Shown here: positions 4,957 through 38,843 of the stretch, in pieces
Layout of the letters: each line of letters begins with the position of its first letter
Numbering within the stretch: position 1 is the stretch's first letter
DNA from: a virus
Virus record (IMG/VR): IMGVR_UViG_3300022839_000038
Coordinates: 1-38,843 of that record
Strand: one strand, 5' to 3'
Length of the DNA: 38,843 nt
The notes under the pieces: generated by a model
Databases searched by the model: none
Seen by the model: the letters and a program-made list of their open reading frames with translations, nothing else
What the model was told of the DNA's origin: nothing
Program-made: the position numbers and the translations under genes

Positions 4957-5264
4957 ACACTGAAGCTTACAGCGCGTGGGTGGAGAAGAAGATTATTACT
5001 GAGGGTGATACACGCCTTATTGAGAATACCCTAGGTCTTGTTGGTGAGGCTGGGGAGGTAGCTGAGAAGATCAAGAAGCTATTCCGAGACGGGGTTGTAG
5101 ACGAAGATGCCATCAAGAAGGAGATTGGTGATGTCGTGTTCTACGCTACTGCACTGGCCAACTACTTTAATGGTAACTTGCAAGAAGTAATTGATATTAA
5201 CGTTGATAAGCTAGATGGACGTGAAGCACGAGGTACTATTCAAGGGTCAGGTGACAATCGTTAG
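4953..5264 (+). CDS. MazG-like nucleotide pyrophosphohydrolase
   Basis: All-alpha NTP pyrophosphohydrolase, 103 residues. It has GEAGEVAEKIKKLF at 31-44, giving the paired metal-binding glutamates E32-x-x-E35, and EIGD at 57-60 (ExxD) in the next helix. Phage MazG proteins hydrolyse (d)NTPs and have been proposed to alter (p)ppGpp signalling or the dNTP pool. Here it is coupled to the preceding gene and lies upstream of the ribonucleotide reductase, so a role in nucleotide-pool control is the likely reading. The last 15 residues (RGTIQGSGDNR end) look unstructured. Confidence 0.88.
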   Translation: MNTEAYSAWVEKKIITEGDTRLIENTLGLVGEAGEVAEKIKKLFRDGVVDEDAIKKEIGDVVFYATALANYFNGNLQEVIDINVDKLDGREARGTIQGSGDNR

Positions 5265-16153: not shown

Positions 16154-19015
16154 TTATAACCCCACTAACTTGCCTAATACAAAGCCTATTCCCGCCCTCT
16201 TCGAGTCGTTAGAAGACTGACTAGACTCCCACTTAGATAAGTCAACCTCCTTGTCAGCTAAGAAAACAGACAAAGCACGATCAGTAGAACTCTCAGACAT
16301 ACGGAAGGCGTAGTCCATCATGTCCCGCTCACGCTGCCACACAACATCCATTGTACTCTGAGTGAAGCTGTTAGCCGCCATAGCGTCAGCCATGTTAGCC
16401 TCGTTCTGAGCTGCAGAATTAAGGGTAGTAGCGTTCTGACGCCATTGAGCGTTAGCCTGTGCCACAACCAAAGAATTCTGAGCATTGAACTGGCTACGTT
16501 GTACTTCCATACCGGCATTAAACTGTTGGACTTGGTTCTTCATGGATTCAAAGAACTGATTAGTTTGATTCTCACTAGAAGCGTTGAACTGCTTAGCCGC
16601 GTTCATAGCTGCTTGATCAGACAGTACAGCATTGATAACTGACTGTGACTTAAACAACTCAGTCTGTTGAGCCAAGTCCATATTCTTCATATCCATAGCT
16701 AGGAATGACTGAGCATTAACTACGGCAGCTTGTTGACGATTATTAAGATTAGTCATATCCATAGAAGCTACAGTAGCTGCATTCTGAAGAGTAACGGCGT
16801 TCTTAGCTGACATCTCATTGAGTCCGATAGTCTGCATCAACTGAGAGTTAGAAAGGGCGGCGTTCTGTTCAGCTGTAAAGGTAAGGTTAGCTGCTTCAGC
16901 AAACTTGGCCGCATTGAGTACAGCTGACTGCTGCTTGTTAGTCATCTCTTGACCACGTAGTGTAGCTTCGATCTGAGTATTAGCTAGTACAGTTTGTTGA
17001 CGGTTAGACAGTTCTGCTAGATCAATATTCAGCTTATTGGTAGTGCTGAACAGAGTCGTTTGTTGTTCGTTGCTTAGTTCAATCTTACGCTCCTCAAGAG
17101 CAGCTGAGACGTTGAACAGCTGTGTCTGTTGACGAATGTCCATAGACCTACCCTCAAGGGCAGCTTGAGCAGAAGCATCCTGTAAGAAAGCTTGCTGCTT
17201 AGCGCTGGCATTGAAGTTAGCACGTTGAAAGTCTTGAGTAGTAGTCAACACAGCCACCTGTTGTTCATTAGACAACTCCTGACCAACCAGAGAAGCACGT
17301 ACCTGTAGGTTACTCAGGGAAGTCTGCTGCTCGTTAGATAGGTTAGCCATTGCAACTTGCAGATTCTGAGATGAGTTCTGTATGGCAGCTTGTTGGCGAT
17401 TATTAAGGTTGATGTTATTCTTCTCAGCGTACTTGGCTGCGTTAGCTAGGGACGTCTGGGTCTTTACATCAATAATCTTGCTCTGCAGAGCTGCCTTAAA
17501 CTGAGCGTTAGCTAGAACGGTAGCTTGTACGTTAGACAGGTTTTGAGACTGGAGTGAGAAGGCGTTAGATGAGTTCTGTAGAGCTGTTTGCTGTTCGTTA
17601 TTTAGGTTAGACAGTTCCATGTTTTGCTGTGCAGCCGCGTTAGCTAAAGAGACCTGTTGACGGTTGTTAAGGTTAGCTAAACCCATCTGTTGAAATGCTT
17701 GAGCATCTTGAGAGGCAATGGGTATTGCTGCTTCCATCGTAGCTTGTACGATAGCTGCCCCAGCCATTGAGCTACCACCCAGACCACGCGCAGCCATAGC
17801 CGCGTTAGCGGCCCGCATAGCGCCAGCGGCCCATGCCGGGGTACCGTTGTTGAACTGATCCAGTAGACTAGCCATCTGTCCTTGGACAGTAGCATAAGGT
17901 GGTACAGTACCTTGTGCAGCTTTAGCTAGAGCAGCTTGAGAGAAGCTACCTTGTGCTGCAATAGCAACTGCGTCAGCATCAAGGGCTTCCATAGTCGCAG
18001 CTACTGCGGTGACGGCTCTAGCGGCTCCAACAATATCCTTGGCGTTTACTAGTTCGTTGGCCCCAACAGAACCTTGTGCAGCTTCAATAGTTGACTGCCA
18101 GTCAGACTGAGCAGCTTCAGCAGTAGGGTACTCAGAAGCCTTAGCAGCGTCTTGTACTGTCGTTGCTTGTTGTTCTGCAATCTGGGTAGGTGTGAGAGTG
18201 TAGGTGTCCTGTGCCTCAGCTTCAGGTGTATCACCTTCAAACTTAGCAGCAGTTACGTCCTGATACTCACTCAACATTTGAGCTGCTTCAGCCTGTGGGA
18301 TGTTGTTAGCTTTAGCAAACGTAGTCAACTCTTCAGGTGACACTGTGCGAGTACCTGCTTGTACTTCTTGCAGGTACTTGGAGTCAAAACCAGCAGCAGT
18401 AGCCATCGCCTTGGGTGACAAAGAACCTTGGGCAGCCAGTACGGTAGCATCAGCTGAGACTTCACCTTGTACAGCCTGAGTAGCGTTTGTAATACCTTTT
18501 ACTTTATTAATAACTGTTTCAGGAGTAACGATAGCAGCGGAGAGAGCAGCAGGATCGTCTATCTGGGGTGCAGCGCCAGTCACCTGACCAGTAGTGGGTG
18601 CAATGCTAGTACCAGCTGCGTTAGGGTTAATCTGAGTTACTTCAGACTCAGTCACCATAGAAGATGGATCAGCTAAGACCTGTTCTTGTAGCTTGCCCGC
18701 ATTATTAGCATTAGTCTTAGCTGCAGCAATAGCAGCATCAGATTCAGCTTTTGCCTTAGCAGCAGCATCAGCTTTTGCCTTAGCAGCAGCATCAGCTTTT
18801 GCCTTAGCAGCAGCATCAGCTTTTGCCTTAGCAGCAGCATCGGCTTTAGCTTTAGCAGCAGCATCGGCTTTAGCTTTAGCAGCAGCTTTTGACTTAGCAG
18901 CAGCCTTTGTAGCAGCTTGTTGAGCAGCAGTAGGTCCACCACCTCCACTACCACCGCCACCAAACACCACACCCCGGTTAAAGGATAGGTCCGGCATGAA
19001 AGGATTATAGCTCAT
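16154..19015 (-). CDS. Giant helical-repeat internal/tail protein, 953 residues
   Basis: Four parts: a Gly-rich N-terminus; an Ala/Lys stretch with 8-residue repeats (AKADAAAK) at about 35-90; an Ala/Gln/Thr-rich region to about 448; and residues 449-888 made of 20 consecutive 22-residue repeats with no length change, each opening hydrophobic-x-N-[R/E]-Q-Q. Twenty-two is two hendecads, expected for a long, nearly straight coiled coil. The 65-residue C-terminus ends GFVLGKLVGL. It lies upstream of the SleB hydrolase and the ejection-type proteins, so a DNA-ejection conduit, core or tail part is likely but unproved. TAATG coupling and GAGGA support the start. Confidence 0.7.
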   Translation of the reverse strand: MSYNPFMPDLSFNRGVVFGGGGSGGGGPTAAQQAATKAAAKSKAAAKAKADAAAKAKADAAAKAKADAAAKAKADAAAKAKADAAAKAKAESDAAIAAAKTNANNAGKLQEQVLADPSSMVTESEVTQINPNAAGTSIAPTTGQVTGAAPQIDDPAALSAAIVTPETVINKVKGITNATQAVQGEVSADATVLAAQGSLSPKAMATAAGFDSKYLQEVQAGTRTVSPEELTTFAKANNIPQAEAAQMLSEYQDVTAAKFEGDTPEAEAQDTYTLTPTQIAEQQATTVQDAAKASEYPTAEAAQSDWQSTIEAAQGSVGANELVNAKDIVGAARAVTAVAATMEALDADAVAIAAQGSFSQAALAKAAQGTVPPYATVQGQMASLLDQFNNGTPAWAAGAMRAANAAMAARGLGGSSMAGAAIVQATMEAAIPIASQDAQAFQQMGLANLNNRQQVSLANAAAQQNMELSNLNNEQQTALQNSSNAFSLQSQNLSNVQATVLANAQFKAALQSKIIDVKTQTSLANAAKYAEKNNINLNNRQQAAIQNSSQNLQVAMANLSNEQQTSLSNLQVRASLVGQELSNEQQVAVLTTTQDFQRANFNASAKQQAFLQDASAQAALEGRSMDIRQQTQLFNVSAALEERKIELSNEQQTTLFSTTNKLNIDLAELSNRQQTVLANTQIEATLRGQEMTNKQQSAVLNAAKFAEAANLTFTAEQNAALSNSQLMQTIGLNEMSAKNAVTLQNAATVASMDMTNLNNRQQAAVVNAQSFLAMDMKNMDLAQQTELFKSQSVINAVLSDQAAMNAAKQFNASSENQTNQFFESMKNQVQQFNAGMEVQRSQFNAQNSLVVAQANAQWRQNATTLNSAAQNEANMADAMAANSFTQSTMDVVWQRERDMMDYAFRMSESSTDRALSVFLADKEVDLSKWESSQSSNDSKRAGIGFVLGKLVGL
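16352..17671 (-). repeat. 20 protein repeats of 22 residues (66-base period)
   Basis: Codes for residues 449-888 of the 953-residue protein. The repeats are kept in length but diverged in sequence, so the constraint appears to be on protein geometry rather than recent DNA duplication. The best kept positions are the QQ pair at 5-6, a hydrophobic residue at 9 and a frequent Asn at 11. Confidence 0.9.
18745..18888 (-). repeat. Six tandem 24-base repeats (Ala/Lys/Asp)
   Basis: Four almost identical 24-base units at 18745-18840 and two slightly changed ones at 18841-18888, coding for an 8-residue AKADAAAK unit. Near identity at DNA level points to recent expansion by slippage. Confidence 0.85.
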
Positions 19016-19802: not shown

Positions 19803-21577
19803 TATTTAGTCTCCAAAGCCAAAAGGCGGGTTTCAAGGTTTTCGATAATCTCCTGCTGCTCCTGAATGGCATTTACCATAACAGCAATCAGCGATTGGTC
19901 CGTCATACGAAGTTTGTCTGGTTGCTCGTTGTCAATAATGACTGGGTTGTCACCTTCCAGAGCAAGTATATCCTGCGCCAAAAAGCCATAGCGGGTCTGG
20001 CCGTGACCTTCGGTAGCATCGCGATCAATCTTGTAACGGAACGACGTGGGCTTCAGCGCATTTACAAAATCCAAGCCATGCGGCACAGGCGCTATTTCAG
20101 TTTTATCCCTAGCGTCAGACACCACGGTCCATGCCACTTGGATGTAGGCATTTGTGACACCCGTTGAGCCCATACAGAACCGGTTGTCTTCAGTAGTGGG
20201 GTTGAAAACAGGAACATAGGCTCCTGCGGAATTTAAGGGGTTTAACGCGGTGTTGCCGCTGCCTGTAGTGTTGCTGAATAGTGCGTTGAATCCACTAGCT
20301 GTGTTACTGGAGCCAGTAGTGTTGCTGTAAAGTGTTTGGTAGCCACTTGCTGTGTTGCTTAGGCCAGTAGTGTTGCTGTATAGTGCTTGGGAGCCACTAG
20401 CTGTGTTTCTGATGCCCTCAGTGTTGCTGAATAGTGCTAGGTAGCCACTAGCTACGTTGTCGGAGCCAGTAGTGTTGCTGTATAGTGCTTGGGAACCACT
20501 AGCTGTGTTTCTGAGGCCAGTAGTGTTGCTGAATAGTGCTAGGTAGCCACTAGCTACGTTGTTGGTGCCAATAGTGTTGCTGAATAGTGCTTGAGAGCCA
20601 CTAGCTGTGTTTCTGATGCCTGTAGTGTTGTTGAGTAGTGCGACGTAGCCACTAGCTGCGTTGTCAGAGCCAGTAGTGTTGTTGCGGAGTGCTTGGAATC
20701 CACTAGCTACGTTGTTGCCGCCAGTAGTGTTGCTGAGGAGTGCTTGGGAGCCACTAGCTACGTTGCTGCTGCCCGTAGTGTTGCCGGATAGTGCATTGCG
20801 GCCACTAGCCACGTTGTTGCTGCCAGTAGTGTTGTTGAGGAGTGCTTGGAATCCACTAGCTACGTTGTTGGTGCCCGTAGTGTTGGAGTTCAGTGCTTGG
20901 GAGCCACTAGCTGTGTTAGTCGATATATTACCTGCGCCACGCCCAACGGTTAGACCATTTAATGTCGAATCGCTTGTTGATGTTATCGCCGTAAAAGTAG
21001 GGCTAGCGGTAGTTATTAAGCTTTGGTTAATTGCCTTAACAGCAGCGAGGTCTGTAAGCTCACTATCCATTAACGCACCAGCAGAAGTAACATTAATTGT
21101 ATCTGTCACGTCAGCTAGAGCTTCGATAGCATCTAGTTTGGTTTCATCTGCAACCAAGAAACTAGCGGTAGTGTTGGTTAGAACAGTCGTAAGAGGTTGC
21201 TTACCATTCAGTTGGGTCTGGATAGCAGAGGTAACTCCATCTACGTAGTTAAGTTCAGCTGCTGTAGAGGTAACAGCAGTACCGCCGAGGGTAAGCGTAG
21301 TCAGGTGCAGGTTAGACCAAACATTGCTGGCCTTACCTAAGGTGTATACAGCGGTAGTCTTAGGGTAGAATGCTGAACCGTCACCTAGGTACTCTTGCAC
21401 AGGCCCGAGCGCAGAGATAGCCCCACCCTCTGCAGCAGTTCCGTCGTGAGTATGACCAGTAGTGTTAACGAATGCTGAAACGATCGCATCAAACTCACCG
21501 TCAAGGTCAGATGCTGCAATTACGTTGCCGTTAGCAATGTTGTTTGGGGTGTCGTTGCGGGTGTAACCTTGGCCCAT
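19802..21577 (-). CDS. Tail fibre/adhesin with collagen-free repeat shaft and S74 intramolecular chaperone
   Basis: 591-residue receptor-binding protein. Residues 1-60 (MGQGYTRNDTPNNIANGNVI..) are the virion-attachment end common in marine podovirus fibres; 100-215 a beta-rich neck; 221-441 thirteen 17-residue repeats N-x-A-S-G-x-x-A-L-x-x-N-T-T-G-x-x, like the left-handed beta roll heads of trimeric adhesins; about 486-591 a peptidase S74 chaperone starting SDARDKTEI (Ser487/Lys492 as self-cleavage pair) and ending in a coiled coil LETRLLALETK. The chaperone would trimerise the fibre and then cut itself off. GGAAG precedes the ATG. Confidence 0.88.
   Translation of the reverse strand: MGQGYTRNDTPNNIANGNVIAASDLDGEFDAIVSAFVNTTGHTHDGTAAEGGAISALGPVQEYLGDGSAFYPKTTAVYTLGKASNVWSNLHLTTLTLGGTAVTSTAAELNYVDGVTSAIQTQLNGKQPLTTVLTNTTASFLVADETKLDAIEALADVTDTINVTSAGALMDSELTDLAAVKAINQSLITTASPTFTAITSTSDSTLNGLTVGRGAGNISTNTASGSQALNSNTTGTNNVASGFQALLNNTTGSNNVASGRNALSGNTTGSSNVASGSQALLSNTTGGNNVASGFQALRNNTTGSDNAASGYVALLNNTTGIRNTASGSQALFSNTIGTNNVASGYLALFSNTTGLRNTASGSQALYSNTTGSDNVASGYLALFSNTEGIRNTASGSQALYSNTTGLSNTASGYQTLYSNTTGSSNTASGFNALFSNTTGSGNTALNPLNSAGAYVPVFNPTTEDNRFCMGSTGVTNAYIQVAWTVVSDARDKTEIAPVPHGLDFVNALKPTSFRYKIDRDATEGHGQTRYGFLAQDILALEGDNPVIIDNEQPDKLRMTDQSLIAVMVNAIQEQQEIIENLETRLLALETK
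20255..20917 (-). repeat. 13 tandem repeats of 51 bases in the tail fibre
   Basis: Thirteen units of 17 codons without length change; neighbouring units share long identical stretches (for example CCACTAGCT in every unit). The array is a natural site for unequal recombination that lengthens or shortens the fibre. Confidence 0.92.
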
Positions 21578-24608: not shown

Positions 24609-25816
24609 TACGCTGCAATCCTTGTATTATTCTGTGCTTCTACTAAGAGTGTACGATCACTATCAGTCCTACTAAAGTGCTCGACATAGACCACAGCAGG
24701 CTCAGCTGGTACGTAAGCAGTAAGCTCTAAGACTTGCCCCAGTGGTGGCAGCTCAACCACGAGAGGAACGGTTATCTCTGAGTTAACTTCAAGACTACCG
24801 GCTGTGAGGATAGCCAGTTGGCTAAAGGCAGGTGGAATAACCTCAGATAGGGCCTCAATACTAGAGGAGTTTAGGGTGTTTAACTGAGTAACTATTGGTA
24901 GTGTAAGTTCAGAAGTAGTCTCTAAGTCATCAGCTGCTAGGAGGGCTTTAGCTGAGCTATTAGGTATAGTTAGTTCAGAAGTTGCTTCAAGGTCATCTAC
25001 CAGAAGGTCATGGGCTTGAGTAATAGAAGCTGCAGTAAGTTCTAGGTTAGTTTCAAGGCTTACAGCTATTAAAGCATTATCTTCTGATATAACTGGGATA
25101 GTAAGTTCAGAAGTAGCCTCTAAGTCAACAGCAAGGAGTATAGCTTTAGCTGAGCTATTAGGTATAGTTAGTTCAGAAGTTGCTTCAAGGTCATCTACCA
25201 GAAGGTTATGGGCTTGAGTAATAGAAGCTGCAGTAAGTTCTAGGTTAGTTTCAAGGCTTACAGCAATTAAAGCATTATCTTCTGATATAACCGGGACAGT
25301 AAGTTCAGAAGTAGCCTCTAAGTCATCAGCAAGGAGTATAGCCTTAGCTGAGCTACTAGGTACTGTAAGTTCAGGGGTAGTATCAACGCTAAGAGCATTA
25401 AGGACTTGGCCTAGAGCAGGAGCAGTGATCTCAGTTAAAGAGGTTATGCCCCCACCGTAAGAAGCGTCACCATACACCGAAGTGCCGTAGAAAGGGTTAG
25501 GTCCAGCTATTAAAGCATTATCTTCTGATATAACCGGGATAGTAAGTTCAGTTAAAGAGGTTGTGCCCCCATTGTAAGAAGCGCCACCGTACACCGAAGT
25601 GCCGTAGAAAGGGTTAGGTTCAGCTATTAAAGCATTATCTTCTGATATAACCGGGATAGTAAGTTCAGGGGTAGTCTCTATATTAATAGTTTTCTGAGCA
25701 ATGACAGGGGTAGTTACCTCTGTATCAGAACGGATATGCCCTCCGTACTGTTCAGCCCCATAGACTGCAGTACCATAGAGGGCATAGCCACCAGCTCTTA
25801 GGTCATGGTCAGCCAT
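24608..25816 (-). CDS. Highly repetitive putative tail protein, 402 residues
   Basis: Starts MADHDLRAGGYALYGTAVYGAEQYGG; residues about 25-330 are built from 18-22-residue units of the type LEATSELTIPVISEDNALIA, with two inserted blocks bearing NPFYGTSVYG. Alternating hydrophobic residues suggest a beta-solenoid or stacked-strand shaft. The DNA holds a 198-base and a 117-base tandem duplication, so the length is probably changeable. The C-terminus (from about 355) is non-repetitive. It lies between coat-region genes and the tail tube genes. No known family; a fibre or appendage is the best guess. Confidence 0.6.
   Translation of the reverse strand: MADHDLRAGGYALYGTAVYGAEQYGGHIRSDTEVTTPVIAQKTINIETTPELTIPVISEDNALIAEPNPFYGTSVYGGASYNGGTTSLTELTIPVISEDNALIAGPNPFYGTSVYGDASYGGGITSLTEITAPALGQVLNALSVDTTPELTVPSSSAKAILLADDLEATSELTVPVISEDNALIAVSLETNLELTAASITQAHNLLVDDLEATSELTIPNSSAKAILLAVDLEATSELTIPVISEDNALIAVSLETNLELTAASITQAHDLLVDDLEATSELTIPNSSAKALLAADDLETTSELTLPIVTQLNTLNSSSIEALSEVIPPAFSQLAILTAGSLEVNSEITVPLVVELPPLGQVLELTAYVPAEPAVVYVEHFSRTDSDRTLLVEAQNNTRIAA
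24945..25340 (-). repeat. 198-base tandem duplication
   Basis: Copies at 24945-25142 and 25143-25340 differ at about five positions by eye (around 97% identical). The unit is 66 codons, so the frame is kept. Such identity means recent duplication or ongoing gene conversion. Confidence 0.88.
25434..25667 (-). repeat. 117-base tandem duplication
   Basis: Copies at 25434-25550 and 25551-25667, nearly identical over most of the unit, 39 codons each. Both contain the NPFYGTSVYG block and one ELTIPVISEDNALIA unit. Confidence 0.85.
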
Positions 25817-37487: not shown

Positions 37488-38036
37488 TCACATACCCTTT
37501 AAAAATAGATCACGCTCTTTAGCGCGGCGGATAGTCAAGCCAGTCAGAGGCTTACCCTTCTGCTTGTTCCATCTAGGAAGCTCGTTAGCGGCTCCCTTAT
37601 AATCTTTACCATTCAACTTCTTAAGTAGGGTAGAAGTACGGAAGTTAGTCTCACCAAGGTTAAAGATAAAGGACGTGAGGGCGTCGTACATGTTCTGAGT
37701 CAAGGGAACTTCAACGTAACGGTTGAGAGCCTTCTGGACCCACGCTAGGTCAGCATACAGAAACTCTGTAGCTTCTTCTCTAGAGATTACTTGACCGGGG
37801 AAGACACCTTGGGTATGGCCCCATCCGATAGTCCACACATCATTCTTAGTTGGGAGGTAAGCCTTAAGACGCAGACCCTCGGACTCCTTAATCAACTCCA
37901 CATCACTAGGCTTTAGTGCCTGAGCCATGGAGTAGGCAGGACCGAACTTATGTTCCTCTGGGGTCTCCTTAGATTCAGCGGAGAGGTACTCCAGAATCTT
38001 CTTAAGCATCGCTATAATCTGTTCCATCTCTGTCAC
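37488..38036 (-). CDS. Endolysin, GH24 phage lysozyme
   Basis: 182-residue muramidase. Residues 1-40 are a helical lead-in without a clear signal peptide, though IIAMLKKILEYL is amphipathic. The catalytic region is IKESEGLRLKAY at 49-60 with Glu53, then Asp66 and Thr75 in DVWTIGWGHT, giving the Glu-8+-Asp-Thr triad of T4-type lysozymes; later LTSFIFNLG and the C-terminal TGLTIRRAKERDLFL fit the family. With no signal peptide it needs the holin coded downstream. Coupled by ATGA to the preceding gene. Confidence 0.92.
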   Translation of the reverse strand: MTEMEQIIAMLKKILEYLSAESKETPEEHKFGPAYSMAQALKPSDVELIKESEGLRLKAYLPTKNDVWTIGWGHTQGVFPGQVISREEATEFLYADLAWVQKALNRYVEVPLTQNMYDALTSFIFNLGETNFRTSTLLKKLNGKDYKGAANELPRWNKQKGKPLTGLTIRRAKERDLFLKGM

Positions 38037-38290
38037 TCCCAGTCCCTCTTAAGGTTTGGTTCGTTACAATCACGAGCTGGGATCATTCCCTCCAAGTACA
38101 TGGCCCGTTCCATCCGATCGAGTTCAACCCAATGTCCGGTATCTTGGAAGTACTTCTCTCTGATGTAGTATACTTCACTTCGAGGGATATGGGTAGACCG
38201 CAGAGCCTGTACGTCATCACTAGCGAGAGCCTTAAAGACCTTCCCTAGTATGTCATCCCCTGAATATGGGTTATCTCGGTTGCGTTCCAT
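38033..38290 (-). CDS. Hypothetical protein, first gene of the leftward arm, 85 residues
   Basis: Starts MERNRDNPYSGDDILGKVFKALASDD; helical and charged, with YYIREKYFQDTGHWVELDRMERAMYLEG in the second half. No family recognised. The start at 38290 is chosen because GAGG lies seven bases upstream and the promoter at 38313-38341 would start RNA near 38306; a longer frame to 38341 lies inside the promoter. It leads the lysis block and could be a small regulator or lysis helper. Confidence 0.7.
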   Translation of the reverse strand: MERNRDNPYSGDDILGKVFKALASDDVQALRSTHIPRSEVYYIREKYFQDTGHWVELDRMERAMYLEGMIPARDCNEPNLKRDWE

Positions 38291-38312: not shown

Positions 38313-38341
38313 GTTATAACACAGCACTTTAGACAAGTCAA
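38313..38341 (-). promoter_or_regulatory. sigma70-type promoter of the leftward arm, proximal
   Basis: Reading leftward: TTGACT (38341-38336), a 17-base spacer, TATAAC (38318-38313). Gives a leader of about 15 bases with the GAGG site of the first gene. Confidence 0.75.
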
Positions 38342-38612
38342 CCCTTAAGTTGAACTTGCCTTCAATTTTATTGATTATAGGAGTTAAGCCAGTACTTAAA
38401 GTCATTCTAAGGGTGAGCTCAGTCTCCACCTTCACTTAAGATGCAAAACAAATTAACTAAGTTGCGCAGATTAGTGCCCAAAAGATAGAACCTTAAGCCC
38501 ACTTTGGGTGCTTAATGGTCTACTTACGGTACTTTAAGTCATACTTTAAGTAATACTATAAGTTTAAGTACTTATTTTATATTAACTAATAAGTTCTATA
38601 TCTCTAAGTCTT
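38342..38612. other. AT-rich untranslated stretch with repeated ACTTWAAGT/CTTAAG boxes
   Basis: No gene seen. The near-palindromic 9-mer ACTT[T/A]AAGT occurs at 38394-38402, 38531-38539 and 38543-38551; CTTAAG occurs at 38344-38349, 38435-38440 and 38492-38497; a further TTTAAGTACTT lies at 38563. A hairpin TTAAG-CCCA / TGGG-TG-CTTAA spans 38493-38515. The stretch 38521-38630 is very AT-rich. It lies in the leader made by the distal promoter. It could be operators, an origin, or RNA-processing elements. Confidence 0.6.
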
Positions 38613-38623
38613 TCTATAAGTAT

Positions 38624-38652
38624 ATTATACCATAAGTGACATTCTATGTCAA
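38624..38652 (-). promoter_or_regulatory. Perfect sigma70 promoter of the leftward arm, distal
   Basis: Reading leftward: TTGACA (38652-38647), exactly 17 bases, TATAAT (38629-38624). It would give a leader of more than 300 bases before the first leftward gene. Direct repeats lie just upstream of its -35 box. Confidence 0.88.
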
Positions 38653-38663
38653 CCCTAAATCGA

Positions 38664-38699
38664 CATAATGGTACAATTTAGTTGGCATAAGGGTACAAT
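38664..38699. repeat. Direct repeat pair CATAA[T/G]GGTACAAT, 22-base period
   Basis: Copies at 38664-38677 and 38686-38699, two helical turns apart, beginning 12 bases upstream of the distal -35 box. The geometry suits a dimeric regulator bound on one face of the DNA. Confidence 0.75.
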
Positions 38700-38712
38700 C
38701 TGTACCACCTCT

Positions 38713-38751
38713 TGAATAACTAGTTGGCTGTAGCACCCTGAATAACTAGTT
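38713..38751. repeat. Direct repeat pair TGAATAACTAGTT, 26-base period
   Basis: Copies at 38713-38725 and 38739-38751, exact over 13 bases, each preceded by a CACC-type stretch. A second repeat family in the control region between the divergent arms. From 38752 to the window end I see no gene, only a GGTCATG pair (38777 and 38823) and a TATATATAC tract. Confidence 0.8.
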
Positions 38752-38843
38752 CAGCAAGGGTTTGGACGATCCGCCCGGTCATGATGTGGTTAACAGAACG
38801 TTATTTCCCCATTTCTGGCACTGGTCATGTATATATACGCGCG

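Follow-up and report, generated by a model that had tools for sequence, protein, structure and literature searches.

Palindromic boxes at a consensus late promoter of an HMO-2011-type podovirus: candidate late half of a two-site regulatory switch

The DNA analysed here, hereafter the window, is a linear IMG/VR contig of 38,843 nucleotides and a fragment of an HMO-2011-type podovirus genome, from a group described as dominant and widely distributed in the ocean (PMC9038755). The best matches of its terminase are those of CRP-13 (70.6%), CRP-9 (69.5%) and HMO-2011 (65.8%), and the packaging and morphogenesis genes of this type are represented by these terminase matches and by portal and capsid families. 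The arm on the plus strand encodes DNA polymerase, an SSB-like protein, a Cas4-type exonuclease, RNR and PhoH. The late arm, on the minus strand, encodes capsid, portal, terminase and endolysin, and its open reading frames in the window are codirectional throughout; self-comparison of the window finds internal direct repeats in long genes of this arm (18734-18904, 20247-20922 and 24903-25680). Because the closest records of the group are about 53-57 kb long, part of the early region is absent from the window. A further contig, L007, is 99.86% identical to the window over 4,244 bases and continues for 3,073 bases past position 38843. In this extension the first early gene begins at about 39,953, so that the early arm, on the plus strand, starts beyond the window end and the non-coding region between the divergent late and early arms measures about 1.6 kb in total. 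The idea that the window end is a physical genome end was rejected, as the L007 sequence runs straight through it. Just past this point (L007:2939-3048) lies a 10-bp tandem unit, ACGGTATACA, in 10.6 copies, and this array is possibly the reason why the assembly stops there. The features of the region inside the window, together with the first late gene, are as follows.

38033..38290, minus strand: first late gene (85 aa), with a probable ATG at 38290; the listed open reading frame opens with TTG at 38341, and endolysin follows
38313..38341, minus strand: P2, second leftward promoter, TTGACT-17-TATAAC, directly before the first late gene
38393..38403, no strand assigned: isolated box TACTTAAAGTC, between P1 and P2
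38530..38540, minus strand: box GACTTAAAGTA, one mismatch
38542..38552, minus strand: box TACTTAAAGTA, perfect, 12 bp from the neighbouring boxes
38554..38564, minus strand: box AACTTATAGTA, one mismatch
38612..38622, minus strand: box TACTTATAGAA, one mismatch, overlapping the predicted P1 start site
38624..38652, minus strand: P1, late-arm promoter, TTGACA (38652-38647), 17-bp spacer, TATAAT (38629-38624)
38664..38699, no strand assigned: two copies of CATAAnGGTACAAT starting at 38664 and 38686, 22 bp apart, upstream of P1
38713..38751, no strand assigned: two copies of TGAATAACTAGTT starting at 38713 and 38739, 26 bp apart, upstream of P1
38776..38843, minus strand: conserved upstream element with TGTTAACCAC (GTGGTTAAC at 38786-38794 on the plus strand), continuing past the window end

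P1 agrees with the sigma70 consensus at 12/12 positions, with TG before the -10 hexamer and a predicted start at about 38617. A preliminary description had reported two leftward promoters here, one of them perfect; both are present, although P2 (38341-38313) lies just outside the interval in which they had been placed. The stretch 38530-38662 is conserved among relatives in blastn comparisons despite being non-coding, and nearly all relatives that hold the region have a P1 equivalent in the same place (TTGACA-(16-18)-TATAAT or one mismatch from it); CRP-13, CRP-2 and HMO-2011 are among those with a 12/12 late promoter, and the CRP-9 version scores 10/12. Most relatives also carry a P2 equivalent (TTGACTT...TATAAC), some have a third promoter between the P1 and P2 equivalents, and homologs of the first late gene adjoin P1 in IMG/VR contigs. 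The AT-rich tract described earlier corresponds to an AT content of 0.79 across 38530-38640, downstream of P1.

Within the window, matches to TACTTWWAGTA with at most one mismatch start at 38393, 38530, 38542, 38554 and 38612; an exact spacing of 12 bp separates three of these. Just two more (7135 and 19488) occur in the remaining 38.3 kb. The three ACTTWAAGT near-palindromes of the preliminary description were recovered at 38394, 38531 and 38543, and four ACTTWWAGT boxes are found in the region against a mean of 0.05 in 1000 dinucleotide shuffles. A full box at the position of 38612 is also present in L009, L023, L029, L034, L038, L041, L080 and CRP-13; at ten loci the start site is covered by a box that starts directly after the -10 hexamer, with more boxes beyond it, often spaced by 12 bp. 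We also scanned 16 non-redundant P1 leaders for palindromes without bias, taking all four-base arms and gaps of 0-8 and using 200 shuffles. The top palindrome was TACT-N3-AGTA, with 37 copies in 14 of the 16 leaders, whereas in the shuffles the best palindrome of any kind averages 4.9 copies (maximum 9) and TACT-N3-AGTA itself averages 1.1. The full box is approximately ATACTTWWAGTAT, and its general form is (A)TACT-NNN-AGTA(T). Boxes are found in both orientations, and the CRP-13 lineage changes the box centre while keeping the arms, as expected for a dimer operator co-evolving with its protein. HMO-2011, CRP-1 and CRP-2 are without a box of the TACTTWWAGTA type; a variant palindrome of HMO-2011, ACTTAAGT, was considered as an equivalent and rejected, having two copies in the control region and none at a replication promoter. 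The three CTTAAG boxes noted earlier are likewise present, at 38344, 38435 and 38492 (shuffle mean 0.27), but were rejected as a specific box with 27 copies in the whole window. As an observation in its own right, GAATTC, the same pattern backwards, occurs twice in the whole 38.8 kb, where CTTAAG occurs those 27 times.

The boxes recur at a second site. Every one of ten whole relative contigs searched carries TACTTWWAGTA at P1, and six of them also carry it about 6-7 kb into the early arm; the reversed pattern, used as a control, gave one match overall. A rightward promoter resembling the sigma70 consensus precedes the boxes of the second site; it lies 5-7 kb into the early arm, ahead of the replication genes (TTGACA-18-TATACT in L098, TTGACA-17-TACAAT in L099 and TTGACA-17-TAAAAT in L101). 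In the cultured phage CRP-9, whose genome was searched towards both ends, four boxes lie in the control region, and three more occupy 5188-5259, in the gap from gp16 to gp17 and ahead of thyX and primase; the second array of CRP-13 has variant centres, e.g. TACTGTTAGTA. An independent test used loci retrieved by DNA polymerase alone and not by the box: 54 box palindromes were counted upstream of the gene against 3 downstream, and a control palindrome gave 3 and 8. Upstream sequence of at least 5.5 kb is available for 31 such loci. Two or more boxes are clustered in 12 of them, with a promoter just before the cluster in 8 of these 12; the loci without a cluster have single boxes or none. In 6 of the 31, a 12/12 promoter is followed by boxes 15-69 nt after the -10 hexamer. 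The second box site is thus common but not universal. The replication promoter of the window phage itself falls in the missing early region.

Other observations concern the early arm of these relatives. At least some of the early genes at L098:2767-3168, L099:3181-3576 and L101:3110-3511 weakly match the S-adenosylmethionine lyase family, and this likeness suggests a possible anti-restriction role. A conserved early gene pair (L098:3733-6200 and relatives) encodes a protein of about 500 aa with Cys pairs and an M28-like peptidase; in five genomes with boxes the pair is located a short way ahead of the second box array, and it was not found in CRP-13 or L080.

Upstream of P1 the picture differs from that of the boxes. 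The repeats with 22- and 26-base periods, CATAAnGGTACAAT and TGAATAACTAGTT, exist as the preliminary description stated and exceed chance: two CATAAnGGTACAAT copies compare with a mean of 0.00 in 1000 dinucleotide shuffles of the region, and close 13-mer repeats arose in 0 of 60 shuffles. They had been proposed as a regulator site set two helical turns apart upstream of the -35 hexamer, but 26 bp is about 2.5 turns and both repeats are restricted to the phage population of the window, whereas the conserved boxes sit downstream of the -10 hexamer; as conserved regulator sites the upstream repeats were therefore rejected. Conservation in relatives, which had been suggested as a check, is accordingly seen for the ACTTWAAGT boxes but not for these repeats. 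Some other elements of the non-coding region are noted here for completeness. The element upstream of P1 reads roughly CAATGACAGAGAGGGGTATTTT...TGTTAACCAC, and 23 relatives, HMO-2011 and CRP-1 among them, have TGTTAACCAC without a change. Two palindromic copies of approximately TGTAACAAnTCGTTACA lie in L007 at about 39,000 and 39,290 (extended window coordinates), in non-coding sequence near the early genes, and CRP-13 (54671-54734) and CRP-9 (55448-55535) have three to four GTTTA-N4-TAAAC palindromes, spaced by about 22-33 bp, in the part of the control region that faces the early arm.

A repeat-rich, AT-rich stretch next to a promoter could also be a replication origin, as the preliminary description had considered. 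The primary origin of T7 consists of a promoter and an AT-rich tract, and P1 would in the same way prime replication into the stretch downstream of it, where the AT content is high. In HMO-2011 the cumulative GC skew has its minimum adjoining the control region and its maximum where the arms converge, and the 10-bp tandem array just past the window end would suit an origin as well. Nevertheless, we consider this reading of the region very unlikely. In the window phage the skew switches sign near 39.25-39.5 kb, past the end of the window and hence outside the proposed interval, and gene direction confounds skew, which in HMO-2011 follows the gene arms; the relatives examined do not share the 10-bp array, and an origin leaves unexplained why boxes recur at a promoter 5-7 kb away. 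It is possible that an origin lies somewhere within the 1.6-kb region.

The combination of promoter and box reaches well beyond the closest relatives. At least 120 viral stretches carry this composite, against 8 with the box reversed; they include near-duplicate contigs and form 48 sequence clusters. Most of the larger clusters adjoin homologs of the window terminase, portal or first late gene, and one cluster of 22 contigs represents a distant podovirus clade, with only 22-28% identity between its portal and HMO-2011-type portals. The presence of the same composite in two such clades might mean that a regulator of the host binds the boxes and is exploited by the phages. We regard this as highly improbable: a stricter composite gave 17 scattered matches in 257 Gb of cellular genomes, none in a genome titled alphaproteobacterial, and such scarcity argues against a host regulon; moreover, the box centres differ between CRP-9 and CRP-13, which both grow on host strain FZCC0023. 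The same absence from genomes titled alphaproteobacterial bears on another explanation, in which the boxes are immunity operators inherited from a temperate ancestor and a lysogeny repressor silences the replication and late promoters. In the G007 and G008 lineages a tyrosine integrase is encoded by the first long gene that follows the second box array, and integrases are also found in CRP-1, CRP-2 and HMO-2011. Still, this appears quite unlikely, as no repressor gene was recognised and integrase is absent from G000-G006 and L007, which are partial records, and from the available parts of the window phage genome.

We propose, with a probability of roughly 60%, that the control region is the late-promoter half of a two-site switch, in which a phage-encoded dimeric regulator would act on box operators. 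The preliminary description had also seen a master switch between divergent arms, and this view is strengthened by the start of the early arm beyond the window end, by the conservation of promoter and boxes in relatives and by their recurrence at the replication-operon promoter. Host sigma70 RNA polymerase would transcribe both arms, since the group is not known to carry an RNA polymerase of its own; none was found among the 18 window proteins scanned, part of the genome being absent from the window, and cobaviruses are described as lacking one (PMC6918029). The late arm would be read from P1, together with P2, and the replication operon from the second, consensus-like promoter in the early arm, and at both promoters the putative operator arrays would extend from the start site through the first ~150 transcribed bases. 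A dimeric protein made from the early genes most likely binds the tandem operators and holds down both promoters, by repression or as a roadblock, and its removal or outcompetition would free them, thereby timing replication and late genes. In the relatives scanned, the boxes form, as operators should, a repeated palindrome that exceeds chance and is essentially confined to the two promoters; from this pattern we infer protein binding, the phage origin of the protein, repression and timing. The regulator is most likely a repressor, judging from the placement of the sites: a perfect P1 needs no activator, and dimer-type sites at or after the start in two operons fit repression or a roadblock. 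A difficulty for a repressor made early is that nothing would yet hold down the consensus promoters at time zero, except where the DNA enters slowly or in an ordered way.

Sites placed in this way could also serve activation, antitermination or pausing. In particular, the boxes might serve processive antitermination or start-proximal pausing, with a phage protein loading on RNA polymerase that is paused within the first ~150 bases and thereby enabling it to read through the long late operon. The boxes do lie at and downstream of the start site at both promoters, the late arm is wholly codirectional, and with their likeness to a -10 hexamer the TATACT arms of the full box could cause sigma-dependent pausing. 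We nonetheless judge this unlikely, because tandem palindromes that occur in either orientation and with a changeable centre are a better fit to a dimer operator, and RNA folding of six leaders was inconsistent (z of 0 to -3) and gave no common structure. An Rfam search of L007 1-4000 found no RNA family.

The proposed regulator is plausibly encoded in the missing early region. In the early arms of CRP-13 (L088:1991-2323) and L080 there is a MarR-like winged-helix gene, a candidate for these two genomes only, as no counterpart was found in the other lineages, and a scan of 48 early ORFs gave no DNA-binding or HTH family common across lineages. The first large early protein of the window lineage was considered and set aside, having no Pfam, PHROG or phage-record match. 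Its AlphaFold2 model, of moderate confidence (pLDDT 68, pTM 0.58), gave no fold match at E 0.001; the helix-helix-hairpin order in the model hints at a winged helix, which we do not count as evidence.

The papers found on HMO-2011-type phages leave undescribed how these phages, which have no known RNA polymerase, set the timing of early, replication and late genes, and no mention of promoters was found in the published roseophage descriptions (PMC9038755, PMC8528129, PMC6918029). A literature search for the box sequence gave unrelated matches only, and a two-site operator system of this kind was not found described in the literature searched, subscription papers being outside its scope. Repressor-operator control is itself an old principle. 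That we are dealing with a new two-site regulator-operator system, present in at least two distant marine podovirus clades without a known RNA polymerase, governing the replication and late operons through two consensus host promoters and showing lineage-wise co-evolution of the operator, we hold at somewhat below an even chance. A conserved pair of operator-bearing promoters makes a testable circuit, and the cultured members CRP-9 and CRP-13 exist.

Several known systems resemble parts of this arrangement. The closest are the HMO-2011-type and the CRP-9/CRP-13-type roseophages, which like the window have divergent arms and a long non-coding region before the first late gene; the 12/12 late promoter is shared by CRP-13, CRP-2 and HMO-2011, and boxes at both sites by CRP-9 and, with variant centres, by CRP-13, whereas the upstream repeats are unique to the window population. 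Phage phi29 is similar in its divergent early and late transcription, its use of a host sigma70-type RNA polymerase and the sites for phage proteins (p4 and p6) in one intergenic region. In phi29, however, the late promoter depends on activation and has the p4 sites upstream of it, while the late promoter of the window is full consensus and its conserved sites lie downstream of the -10 hexamer; the window repeats upstream of the -35 hexamer, where phi29 would have its activator sites, were not found in relatives. Like operators of the MetJ/Arc and MarR types, the boxes are short tandem palindromes about one helical turn apart near a start site; no known consensus was recognised in them. The operators and stoperators of mycobacteriophage L5 are comparable as repressor-type sites inside the transcribed regions of several operons, but those sites are asymmetric and dispersed over the genome, whereas the boxes are palindromic and confined to two arrays. 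Finally, the Q site of phage lambda is likewise a DNA element at a late promoter and its first transcribed bases, where Q brings about antitermination at pR'; the Q site is a single, non-repeated element, whereas the boxes form arrays of palindromes.
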